From an uncultured Cellvibrionales bacterium (lineage in GTDB: Bacteria; Pseudomonadota; Gammaproteobacteria; Pseudomonadales; Porticoccaceae): DNA of 64,000 nucleotides. The notes below the pieces were generated by a model. The model did not search any database and was not told the origin of the DNA. It saw only the letters and a list, made by a program, of their open reading frames with translations. A program made the translations under genes and the position numbers. The first letter of the stretch is position 1, and every line of letters starts with the position of its first letter. Shown piece after piece: positions 29,090 through 39,535 of this stretch. The stretch is taken from NCBI GenBank assembly GCA_913062605.1, contig CAJXWQ010000005.1:1-64000 (forward strand), written 5' to 3'.

Positions 29090-29308
29090 TTGGCTGCCAC
29101 AATGTCAGATGACTTGGAAAATCTCGAGCATAAAATTGATCGCTTGATCCATTTTTGCGCTCGACTTCAAAAAGAGAATGAATCTCTCCGTGATCGTGAA
29201 TCCAGTCTGCTTAAAGAAAGAGGCAAACTTCTGGAGAAGAATGAATTGGCCCGCAACCGGGTTGAACACATGATTGTGAGGCTGAAAGGCCTCAACAACG
29301 AAGGTTAA
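29090..29308 (+). CDS. TIGR02449-like small coiled-coil protein
   Basis: LEHKIDRLIHFCARLQKENESLRDRE, immediately 5' of zapA. Confidence 0.85.
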   Translation: MAATMSDDLENLEHKIDRLIHFCARLQKENESLRDRESSLLKERGKLLEKNELARNRVEHMIVRLKGLNNEG

Positions 29309-29313
29309 GCCCC

Positions 29314-29622: not shown

Positions 29623-29649
29623 CCCCAAGACTGGGGTATAATCCCTTCT

Positions 29650-29824
29650 ATGCCCTGGGGTGCTTGCCAGCCGACAAGTCCTTGAGCCGATAATTTGTAA
29701 CCAGGAGGGTTCAAGCCGATATGGTGTGCATGTCCGCACGACGGAAAGCCTAATGTATCGCTGAGCCCCCCACCTTGAACCATTGGGTTCAAGGCCACGT
29801 TAACAGCGGCACCTCCGGGGACAT
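29650..29824 (+). ncRNA. ssrS: 6S RNA
   Basis: Between zapA and a ygfA-like gene; CCTTGAGCCGATA, TTGAACC..GGGTTCAAGG segments and a terminal helix CCCTGGGGTGC/GCACCTCCGGGG match gammaproteobacterial 6S architecture. Confidence 0.9.
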
Positions 29825-29857
29825 ATTTAAAAACCCGTTTTGACACTCTAGGTACTC

Positions 29858-36054: not shown

Positions 36055-36744
36055 ATGAACCTAAGCCCTCAAGATGCCCTCAAAAAAGCCGTGGCCCAAG
36101 CTGCCGTGGAATACACCCTGAAAAAAATTGATGACACCAGCATCATCGGTATTGGTACGGGTTCAACAGCTAACTTCTTTATCGATTTATTGGCAGAACA
36201 CAAAGCCAACATTGCGGGCACCGTTGCCAGCTCCGAAGCCTCCGCCGATCGCTTGAAGGCACATGGTATTCCTGTCTACGATCTGAACGCTGTTGATGAA
36301 GTAACCATCTATGTGGACGGTGCCGATGAATCCAACTCCCACCTGGAATTGATTAAAGGGGGTGGTGCAGCACTGACCCGGGAAAAAATTACCGCAGCTG
36401 TGGCCAAAGAATTCCTCTGTATTGCCGATGGCTCCAAGTGGGTCGACCACTTAGGTGTCTTCCCACTACCAGTGGAAGTTATCCCGATGGCACGAAGCCA
36501 TGTAGCGCGCGAGTTAGTTAAATTGGGGGGTGACCCGGTTTATCGTGAAGGTGTGGTAACCGATAACGGCAATGTGATTATTGATGTGCACCACATGTGC
36601 CCCATTAGCCCAGCGCGCGAATTGGAAGAAAAGATCAACAATATTACCGGTGTAGTGACTAACGGGTTATTCGCACTACGGCCAGCAGATGTATTAATGA
36701 TTGGAACGGATGACGGGGTAAAAACGGTTTACGCTAAAGATTGA
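36055..36744 (+). CDS. rpiA: Ribose-5-phosphate isomerase A
   Basis: [40 protein letters not shown]. Confidence 0.96.
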
Positions 36745-36817: not shown

Positions 36818-37009
36818 TCACAAAGAGCAGGTCATATCCTCACCACAGCACATGGGTGATTTGATTTTTCCATGATCATTCGGGCATTTCGAGATTTGTA
36901 CTTTTCTACCATCATCAAGTTCTAAACTGTCATCAACCAGTGGCGCATCGCACTTACCACAGGTTGCATTCACACTCATTCCACATTTCGAACATTCGTA
37001 AGTAGCCAT
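36818..37009 (-). CDS. Small zinc-ribbon-like protein
   Basis: MATYECSKCGMSVNATCGKCDAPL...CPNDHGKIKSPMCCGEDM. Confidence 0.75.
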   Translation of the reverse strand: MATYECSKCGMSVNATCGKCDAPLVDDSLELDDGRKVQISKCPNDHGKIKSPMCCGEDMTCSL

Positions 37010-37066
37010 TTGAGTTTCCTTTAGAAAGATAGTTTGAACACACACATGATAATGATATTAACTATT

Positions 37067-37133
37067 AATTGTCACTGACCCCTTTAATTTCTGAATTGTC
37101 ACTGACCCCTTTAATTTCTGACCCCTTTAATTT
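37067..37133. repeat. Direct repeats: 27-bp AATTGTCACTGACCCCTTTAATTTCTG twice, then a third partial copy
   Basis: GACCCCTTTAATTT at 37077, 37104 and 37120. Confidence 0.95.
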
Positions 37134-37354
37134 GCTTCAAATTGCTCTCGCTTTGATTCAAACCAATTTTTCATTTCTTCCGGGTTTTTCATGAGCTCCT
37201 GCATTTTTTGCATTGCAACCAAGTGTGCTGATTCTTGTTGCTTGAACATGTCCATACAATGCTGCTTGCTGAGTTCTGCCATCTCTTCAAATGTATTCGC
37301 ATGAAACTCTTCATCACATGCGCCGCCCAACTGCTTACAATTCATCGTCTTCAT
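37127..37354 (-). CDS. Small DUF1059-like protein, in candidate cassette 3
   Basis: MKTMNCKQLGGACDEEFHANTFEEMAELSKQHCMDMF. Confidence 0.75.
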   Translation of the reverse strand: MKTMNCKQLGGACDEEFHANTFEEMAELSKQHCMDMFKQQESAHLVAMQKMQELMKNPEEMKNWFESKREQFEAN

Positions 37355-37382: not shown

Positions 37383-37457
37383 ACATAACGCTGAGGTAAT
37401 GGGCAAAGCACGCAGTGCTTTGTCCAGCCGTAGGCGCCATTGACCGTTTTGTTAGGT
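37383..37457 (-). other. Candidate integron attC site A (recombination site downstream of ORF 37452..37847)
   Basis: Minus strand ACCTAAC...GTTATGT; L''/L' GGT(C)AATGG/CCATTACC with one extrahelical base; central stem GGACAAAGCAC-TGC-GTGCTTTGCCC. Confidence 0.8.
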
Positions 37458-37847
37458 TTTTGTTGCACCACCGCCCTGTAACCTCTGTGTACGCACCATT
37501 TTCTGGATTAATTTAATAATTAAATACCAACCATAGATAATTACGCTGCCAAATAACCAAAATGCGAATTGATCTGTTTCGATTGAAAATTCGCCCGCGC
37601 CGGATTTTGAGACGAATAACATTTTAGGCGCAGATATTGACATTGGAATTAATGCATAGCTTCTACTAGTTATTGCAGAGCCCACTGAAGAACCGCCAAC
37701 AGCTAAAGACAAATAGCCATGCGTGTGCTTTTTGGCTGTACTATCCCCTTCCCAAGGGCTTACTGTATTAAAGATGCTGTTTGCTGCCGCAATAAAGGCA
37801 CTCAGCATAAATACAAATTTAAAAAAGCCAATTATTCCTTGCTTCAT
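37452..37847 (-). CDS. Hypothetical membrane protein, candidate cassette 2 ORF
   Basis: 131 aa with TM helices; stop codon lies inside the attC A inverse core. Confidence 0.7.
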   Translation of the reverse strand: MKQGIIGFFKFVFMLSAFIAAANSIFNTVSPWEGDSTAKKHTHGYLSLAVGGSSVGSAITSRSYALIPMSISAPKMLFVSKSGAGEFSIETDQFAFWLFGSVIIYGWYLIIKLIQKMVRTQRLQGGGATKT

Positions 37848-37853
37848 TGAGAA

Positions 37854-37928
37854 ACCTAACGCCTCAAACAGCGGCGCGCGTTAGCGCGTCCAGCCACGCA
37901 GTGGCGTTGCTGCTTTGACTTGTTATGT
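37854..37928 (-). other. Candidate integron attC site B (recombination site downstream of ORF 37932..38189)
   Basis: Minus strand ACATAAC...GTTAGGT; L''/L' TCAAA(G)CAGC/GCTGTTTGA with one extrahelical G; internal stem segments. Confidence 0.8.
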
Positions 37929-37931
37929 GAA

Positions 37932-38189
37932 TTAGCTAGTAAATTTGGACTTTGCATATTTATACATTACCACTGAGGATAAACCCCATATCAATGTTTT
38001 AAGGCTAACAATAATAGAGAACCAAATAGGACTCGAGTTAAACGAAACCGAGTTGGTAACTCGAAGGTTCTGTATTTCTAATTCTGTAGCAGCGCCAAAG
38101 AGCTGGTTCCCTAACCAAACAAAGAGAAATGCAGATATTAAGAACCACAAGGGACTATTTGAAATGCCCAATTCTTCGAATTTCATGTT
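37932..38189 (-). CDS. Small hypothetical membrane protein, candidate cassette 1 ORF
   Basis: MKFEELGISNSPLWFLISAFLFVWLGNQLF; bounded by a GTTATGT core upstream and attC B downstream. Confidence 0.6.
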   Translation of the reverse strand, partial: NMKFEELGISNSPLWFLISAFLFVWLGNQLFGAATELEIQNLRVTNSVSFNSSPIWFSIIVSLKTLIWGLSSVVMYKYAKSKFTS

Positions 38190-38200
38190 CCGCTCACCAC

Positions 38201-38207
38201 ACATAAC
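38201..38207 (-). other. Orphan core-like site GTTATGT at the start of candidate cassette 1
   Basis: Minus strand CTGTTATGTGTGG upstream of ORF 37932..38189; complements the ACATAAC of attC B. Confidence 0.5.
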
Positions 38208-38497
38208 AGTGAATTAAAGACTCGGGCACTATATCACTTTGGCCCCTTGTTCCTGGGCTGCGAGCAATAATACCTTCAATTTTCATTGATAAAACAATAC
38301 GTTGGAAGTGAAAAGGTTTTTTATTAGCGGACATAGTGAGACTTCCCTGAATTTATTCTGTTATTCCCTTTACCATAATTGACGGCCCCTTGAGCATAAC
38401 TCTGTATCGTTAAAAATCAAGACGTTACGTTATTTTGAAAAGTGTTATGAAGACTCTCGCCGCTGTTCACGAAGGCTGTTCGTTAGTTTATGACGCG

Positions 38498-39535
38498 CTA
38501 CATCACTTCTAATGGCGGTTCATTTAATGCAGCAAACTGCTCTCTGATTTCCAGAATATGTTCGCCCCAATAGCGCTCGGTATTAAACCAGGGAAAGGCT
38601 CTGGGAAAGGCGGGGTCTTGCCAGCGTTTGGCAAGCCACGCGGCGTAGTGAATCATCCGCAGGGTGCGGAGTGCTTCTATCAGCCGTAACTCACGGGGAT
38701 GAAAGTCGAAAAACTGGTTATAGCCATCCACAATTTCTGACAACTGCGCAGTTTGTCGGTCGCGTTCGCCCGACATCAGCATCCAGATATCCTGTACGGC
38801 TGGCGCCATACGCGCATCATCCAAATCCACAAAGTTGGCATTGTCATCTCGCCACAGAATATTCCCTGAATGGCAATCTCCATGTACTCGAATATGATCA
38901 ACGGTACCGACATTGGCAATGGTCTCATCCACTGCCTGCATCACATCCCGGACCAGGGAGTCATAGGACAGCTTTAACCCCTGCGGAATAAATTGCTCAC
39001 TGATCAGTGCCGCAGGTTCGTGGCCAAAGCTTTGGCTGTCCAGTACCGGGCGATATTTGAAGGGCCGCACAGCACCGACCGCATGCATTCGACCCAGCAG
39101 TTTGCCCAGAAGGTAGAGATTGTCGAGATTATCCAGCTCTGGCCCATGGCCGCCCTTACGAGGAAACAGTGCAAACTGAAAGCCCTGGTATTCAAATAGG
39201 CTTTGGCCCGCCTTATTCACCATGGGTGCCACCACAGGCAATTCCTGCTCTACCAGTTCAAAGCAAAACTGGTGTTCCTCAAGAATTTGCTCGGTACTCC
39301 AGCGGTTGGGACGATAAAACTTGCCAATAATTGGCGTCTCATCTTCGATACCTATTTGGTAGACCCGGTTTTCATAGCTATTGAGTGGAAACAAACGGCC
39401 ATCACAAATATGCCCCTGACCTTCCATTGCATCCAGAATAAAATCTGGTGTCAGGCGATCGAATGGATGAGTCGATGGGTCTACAGCCTTAGCCGCACTA
39501 CCCTCATCAGCGTCGTCTACATTTCCATTGATCAC
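38498..39535 (-). CDS. srkA: Stress response kinase A / YihE-like serine-threonine kinase
   Basis: RVHGDCHSGNILWRDDNANFVDLDDARMAPAVQDIWML kinase motif. Confidence 0.93.
   Translation of the reverse strand: MINGNVDDADEGSAAKAVDPSTHPFDRLTPDFILDAMEGQGHICDGRLFPLNSYENRVYQIGIEDETPIIGKFYRPNRWSTEQILEEHQFCFELVEQELPVVAPMVNKAGQSLFEYQGFQFALFPRKGGHGPELDNLDNLYLLGKLLGRMHAVGAVRPFKYRPVLDSQSFGHEPAALISEQFIPQGLKLSYDSLVRDVMQAVDETIANVGTVDHIRVHGDCHSGNILWRDDNANFVDLDDARMAPAVQDIWMLMSGERDRQTAQLSEIVDGYNQFFDFHPRELRLIEALRTLRMIHYAAWLAKRWQDPAFPRAFPWFNTERYWGEHILEIREQFAALNEPPLEVM

Follow-up and report, generated by a model that had tools for sequence, protein, structure and literature searches.

Introduction

How does an array of gene cassettes come to lie between two conserved chromosomal genes with no integrase gene beside it? 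Integrons are described as an integrase gene (intI) and an attI site in cis, accompanied by a cassette array, and arrays lacking an integrase are mostly taken to be degraded integrons or the products of off-target insertion. Clusters of at least two attC sites with no integrase nearby are termed CALINs, two attC sites being the reporting threshold (IntegronFinder; PMC9024848). According to the accessible text of one report, Xanthomonas carries CALINs at conserved non-ilvD loci, where they are taken as the result of old integron activity, and IntI can mobilise CALINs in trans (PMC12444791).

The stretch of 64,000 nucleotides analysed here (hereafter the window) comes from a marine Porticoccus bacterium and belongs to contig C5 of a 2.17-Mb assembly in 47 contigs that is 91% complete (G000). 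An earlier note on this DNA had described a cassette array with two attC sites and no integrase; these two elements stand, and the attI homologue at the head of the array, a third cassette gene and the set of similar units around the genome had all been missed. Formally the array is a CALIN, having at least two clustered attC sites and no intI nearby; the label is right but incomplete, as it leaves out the attI head. Judged from sequence comparison, the array is probably an integrase-less integron composed of attI and three cassettes that would have been captured in trans.

Results

The rdoA–rpiA gap

The array occupies the space between two genes.

38498..39535, minus strand: rdoA (YihE-type kinase), the conserved left neighbour (NCBIfam PRK11768, E = 4.9e-144)
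36055..36744, plus strand: rpiA, the conserved right neighbour, convergent with rdoA (Pfam Rib_5-P_isom_A)

The gap between these genes is 17–77 bp in ten relatives of the genus and is widened to 1.75 kb here, 3.1 kb in G008, 2.25 kb in G010, 0.93 kb in G012 and 0.57 kb in G004. In G008, the RdoA of which is 95% identical, the same gap holds an attI-headed array of another module type, with other cassettes and another attC. Metagenome assemblies break at repeated sequences such as attC and attI, and in a draft of 47 contigs a piece of a real integron might have been misjoined beside rdoA. That the array is such an artefact is scarcely credible, since the separate assembly of G008 has an attI-headed array in the same gap, a zinc-ribbon-like gene beside rpiA is common to four species and a genome assembled as a single contig (G009) shows a like dispersal. 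No clean empty site for the attI module was obtained, the short-gap relatives being too diverged at the joint and most other array loci too variable.

Two attC sites

The two elements from which the earlier note started are as follows.

37383..37457, minus strand: attC site A (covariance model R1, 42.1 bits, E = 3.5e-8)
37854..37928, minus strand: attC site B (covariance model R1, 67.2 bits, E = 1.5e-14)

Both 75-bp elements, read on the minus strand from 37457 to 37383 and from 37928 to 37854, are present letter for letter. The R′′/R′ boxes of each pair at six of seven positions, L′′/L′ arms enclose a variable centre, and the single unpaired base claimed for each element is borne out as one extra left-arm base, C in site A and G in site B. 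Both elements thus have the structural features of attC, namely R′′/R′ boxes, L′′/L′ arms with one extrahelical base and a variable centre.

When this R′′/L′′/L′/R′ layout with one extra left-arm base was scored over the 64-kb window, B scored 14 and A 13, whereas 640 kb of sequence simulated by a third-order Markov model reached no more than 12; among structured candidates of realistic length in the window, these two rank highest. The only other candidate with a score of 13, at 29261–29310, is a hairpin of 50 bp and was rejected as too short for an attC. Model R1 was constructed from 33 aligned attC sites near intI genes of relatives, with A and B left out. It finds A and B at full length on the minus strand and nothing else in the window, which upholds their identification as attC sites. 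Compensatory change is heavy in the R1 helices (87.7% of cells paired versus 61.8% in shuffles), a figure that serves as a check of register and not as proof because the training sites were chosen partly by pairing. Sites adjoining intact intI genes resemble both elements: B has an 89% match over 71 bp at L082:4460-4532, and A a similar site at L090:1749-1835. Folding of the single strands, which the earlier note had proposed, gives better structures than shuffles (z = −2.1 to −2.7) and does not tell the strands apart. Rfam gave no match at A or B in a search of the window and is therefore unusable as a test for attC.

An attI module heads the array

Three features mark the head of the array.

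38204..38473, minus strand: type-2a attI module of about 270 bp, which begins about 25 bp past the rdoA stop and ends at the crossover CTG|TTA
38204..38246, minus strand: type-2 attI core site (model R2, 39.5 bits, E = 4.2e-11, the single match in the window)
38201..38207, minus strand: core box GTTATGT with the crossover G|TT between attI and the first cassette, read in the sequence; the similarity among attI copies stops here

The stretch before cassette 1 ends in AATTCACTG|TTATGT; its homologues in intact integrons of G014 (contig C2), G006 (C8), G012 (C1) and G027 (C9) occupy the space from intI to the first cassette. An attI lies between intI and the first cassette and has its crossover at G|TT, and through these four integrons both properties are found for the homologues of the window sequence. 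The aligned copies agree up to GTTA and diverge beyond it, as predicted for an attI crossover. Model R2 was built from six sites, none of them from the genome of the window. The end coordinate given previously for the array, 38207, is the first base of a third core box, GTTATGT, which had not been recognized as the end of an attI. From these comparisons it is almost certain that A and B are attC sites and that an attI homologue heads the array. The core in the window has a 2-nt deletion in the spacer relative to most copies, and this attI may be inactive.

The attI homology bears on one alternative, namely that an integron integrase inserted the cassettes at a random chromosomal attG site without any attI. 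Insertion at attG by IntI1 has been reported (Loot et al., 2024, as cited in the accessible text of PMC12901181 and PMC12444791), and in five genomes no attI was detected for 21 of the 56 attC clusters; attG insertion could hold for such clusters. For the window array it is very unlikely, as the approximately 270 bp before cassette 1 are an attI homologue and not random rdoA–rpiA sequence. An attG origin was dropped once this homology had been found, the left flank not being that of an attG insertion.

In intact type-2 integrons the similarity continues from attI into intI. Among type-2b copies away from intI it mostly ends 217–283 bp upstream of the crossover, many of these copies ending at one sequence, CCC(T/A)AGATCAGGAGCCATAGGCTTCTG; type-2a copies, including that in the window, start at the matching place, where the window reads TGAACAGCGGCGAGAGTCTTCATAACAC. 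In several genomes, type-2 modules from about a dozen unrelated loci share a left end, about 90 bp before the intI start; some copies are shorter or degenerate. Positions 38477–38215 of the window align for 263 bp, at 74.9% identity, with an ectopic module from an unrelated locus of G006. Because unrelated loci share this left end, we infer that the module arrived as a unit. Type-1 attI, which is associated with lineage-1 integrases, ends in CTCTAATAATTATTATGAGGCCGAAGGCCTCATTAACATACTG|TTA, and several type-1 copies retain 37–80 residues of the IntI N-terminus. As type-1 copies differ from type-2 copies in keeping such stubs, no single origin is claimed for all attI copies.

Two small features of the attI copies are recorded here. 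An inverted repeat lies in the core about a dozen bases before the crossover (GAGGCC-GAA-GGCCTC in type 1 and AAGCC-TTA-GGCTT in type 2), and the left end of the type-2 module repeats a motif of its right end, TAGGCTTCTG.

Search for an integrase

The absence of an integrase from the window, as claimed previously, extends to the whole of contig C5, where a search with the integron-integrase family TIGR02249 found nothing. Elsewhere in the assembly, two frames of 301–320 residues on C2 and C3 match below the cut-off and are XerC/XerD-like, and a short match on C10 is a 94-residue relic in which approximately the first 34 residues of the integrase are joined in frame to the last 40 or so, the middle being deleted. 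This relic (C10:8042-8263, locus L006) adjoins tatD, and its cassette side bears a type-1 attI and at least one attC; it is all that the genome-wide search for intI suggested by the earlier note brought up. An intI adjoins tatD in close relatives as well, nearly full with one stop in G008 and in pieces in G006. No intact intI was found in the 47 contigs, and at 91% completeness one may sit in the unassembled 9%. Set against a complete integron, the array has an attI, recognized by homology, and attC-bearing cassettes, and has no intI adjoining the attI.

An ordinary integron might once have stood complete at rdoA–rpiA, have captured its cassettes with intI in cis and have lost intI by deletion. 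The authors of IntegronFinder have proposed that CALINs are degraded integrons (PMC9024848); the IntI stubs described above adjoin attI at other array loci of the genus, and the module at L136 is still flanked by sequence from beyond the intI stop. For the window array we regard this origin as rather unlikely. Neither intI nor a stub of it was found between rdoA and attI, and random deletion would not make about a dozen unrelated type-2 loci begin alike, at the common left end.

Cassette genes

Read along the minus strand, the order is attI, a 90-residue ORF, site B, a 131-residue ORF, site A and a 75-residue ORF; all three ORFs lie on the minus strand, which confirms the earlier observation of co-oriented ORFs among the attC sites.

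37932..38204, minus strand: cassette 1 ORF, 90 residues as listed, probable start at an inner ATG at 38186; two hydrophobic stretches
37452..37847, minus strand: cassette 2 ORF, 131 residues; no homologue found
37127..37354, minus strand: cassette 3 ORF, 75 residues, its own attC missing; homologues elsewhere, some beside attC
37062..37136, minus strand: AATTAAAGGGGTCAGTGACAA-type repeats, three core copies, at the position expected for a third attC; read in the sequence

None of the three ORFs matches a family in Pfam, NCBIfam, PADLOC or PHROGs. A joint protein search with all three in 394 genomes of the order gave matches in 24 other genomes. The 90-residue ORF has a relative of 55% identity in G205, which is flanked on either side by an attC, the array there having at least five such sites; a plasmid search and a GTDB pattern scan with ORF1 returned no relative. 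The 131-residue ORF has no relative in the plasmid search, the GTDB pattern scan or the 394 genomes. Most matches of the joint search belong to the 75-residue ORF, which has homologues in about 20 further genomes of the order, with 48–67% identity among the clear ones. In G246 (L124) it has attC-like sites on both sides, and a second copy in the genome of the window (C16:28923-29171) directly follows an attC (C16:29171-29242). Two of the three cassette genes of the window hence occur as cassettes elsewhere, and the homologues beside attC sites identify the 75-residue ORF as a third cassette gene the attC of which is gone. In many genomes its family has no detectable attC alongside, so it is not solely a cassette gene.

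Three AAAGGGGTCAG repeats occupy the place of the missing attC of cassette 3. The AATTAAAGGGGTCAGTGACAA motif has the same position in G008 and occurs at several other array loci of the genus (L050, L157, L158, L167 and L170); such repeats may be the mark of lost attC sites.

Dispersal of attC and attI

Further attC sites, for which the earlier note had proposed a search, are numerous: model R1 finds 19 in the genome of the window (E ≤ 0.01), in 13 clusters. Fourteen of the 16 other genomes of the genus carry 2–29 sites each, and the two others, small genomes of 1.2–1.3 Mb, have none by this model. G009, a single contig of 2.47 Mb, carries 14 attC sites, which form nine clusters spread round the chromosome, and of intI it retains only a C-terminal piece; since the scatter is seen in a single contig, it is not an effect of assembly.

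The genome of the window holds about 16 attI copies, about 13 of type 2 (E < 1e-6) and three of type 1. Outside the genus, most other genera tested have none, and G037 has five. Five genomes together hold 54 attI copies. Within 3 kb downstream, a same-strand attC follows 36 of them and an opposite-strand attC none, the corresponding numbers upstream being two and zero; of the 56 attC clusters, 35 have an attI at their head within 3 kb. The remainder, 18 of the 54 attI copies (no same-strand attC within 3 kb) and the 21 attC clusters without attI mentioned above, lack a detected partner, and part of the dispersal may therefore have another origin.

In G000, type-2 attI copies with no attC detected within 3 kb are located at C3:82810, C7:3179, C12:58118, C12:32059, C27:1536, C41:699, C2:164205 and C16:23830. 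They may be empty or decayed docking sites, or lie at contig ends.

Cassette change at a locus without its own integrase

One type-1 locus with a common flanking gene and attI is present in G002, G005, G009, G011 and G016. At this locus the intI end is truncated alike, to a stub of about 60 residues, with further deletions in G009 and G011, and five different sequences follow attI directly in the five species. Compared with G002, G016 has one extra cassette of 385 bp, placed exactly between the attI joint and an attC joint (G|TT); the junction predicted at G|TT without the cassette agrees with the G002 sequence in 99 of 100 bases. G005 and G009 differ from the attI joint to the last attC joint and, from the R′ box of the last attC onwards, are 97.9% identical over 2.3 kb. 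Cassette DNA of G009 recurs at other loci of G011 (L145:5529-6036 and L148:2709-2202, 94.7%).

Precise gain or loss at G|TT needs an integron integrase. As the intI end is truncated alike in the sister species, the gain or loss of cassettes at this locus was most likely driven by an integrase acting in trans, from elsewhere. Such change after the loss of local intI also speaks against degradation of an ordinary integron as the source of the window array. By extension from this other locus and its type-1 attI, we infer that the type-2 array of the window could have changed in the same manner.

Discussion

The reading that we prefer for the window, an attI with three cassettes captured in trans, would proceed as follows. 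The attI module would have reached the rdoA–rpiA gap whole, as one piece of about 270 bp, either bare or already bearing cassettes. An integrase encoded elsewhere would, by analogy with known integrons, bind the folded bottom strand of the attC of a circular cassette and join it to the attI of the window at G|TT, one cassette per event. Repeated capture would build the array with the newest cassette nearest attI, and excision could take place between two attC sites or between attI and attC, as in integrons in general. The integrase would later have been lost, or sits in the unassembled 9%, and the third attC would have decayed. As the integrase is lost or out of view, the array is probably fixed and frozen by now.

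A wider scheme, which we put forward tentatively, is possible. A discrete attI module of about 265–275 bp might multiply itself over the chromosome, each copy founding a small array and one integrase serving all of them in trans. If this is true, the integrase and the docking site are separate genetic entities, and one genome offers many docking sites in different transcription contexts.

The array resembles known systems in part. It shares with CALINs at least two attC sites, co-oriented cassette ORFs and the lack of intI nearby; it differs in its attI head, one of the approximately 16 attI copies of the genome, and in that a sister locus changed cassettes after local intI had been lost. Xanthomonas CALINs are likewise integrase-less arrays found at several conserved chromosomal positions, whereas the accessible text of PMC12444791 describes neither attI nor a dispersed, discrete attI module at those loci. 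Sedentary chromosomal integrons also comprise attI, attC and cassettes and are chromosomal and old in their lineage, but the genome of the window has no intI in cis and many small arrays instead of one large one. In attG insertions, too, cassettes lie outside an integron (Loot et al., 2024, as cited in the sources above); there they occupy a non-attI genomic site, in contrast to the window, where they follow an attI homologue. A literature search, mostly without subscription papers, returned no description of many attI copies per genome or of a discrete attI module.

The pattern across the genus and the one base-exact pair of cassette insertion and absence indicate that orphan attI copies kept functioning as docking sites supplied in trans, and that attI occurs in discrete form, as a repeated module. 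Where integrase-less arrays originate and whether they still work can now be put to a direct test using one integrase and a few DNA sites.

Other features of the locus and the window

A small zinc-ribbon-like protein (MATYECSKCGMSVNATCGKC...) is encoded at 36818–37045 on the minus strand, adjoining rpiA; its gene is kept in G000, G008, G010 and G012 and is absent where the rdoA–rpiA gap is short. A second, degenerate rdoA 3′ end of about 100–120 bp is seen downstream of an inserted ORF in the same gap of G008 (L050) and G010 (L052). At 29649–29825 on the plus strand, the window encodes a 6S RNA (105 bits).
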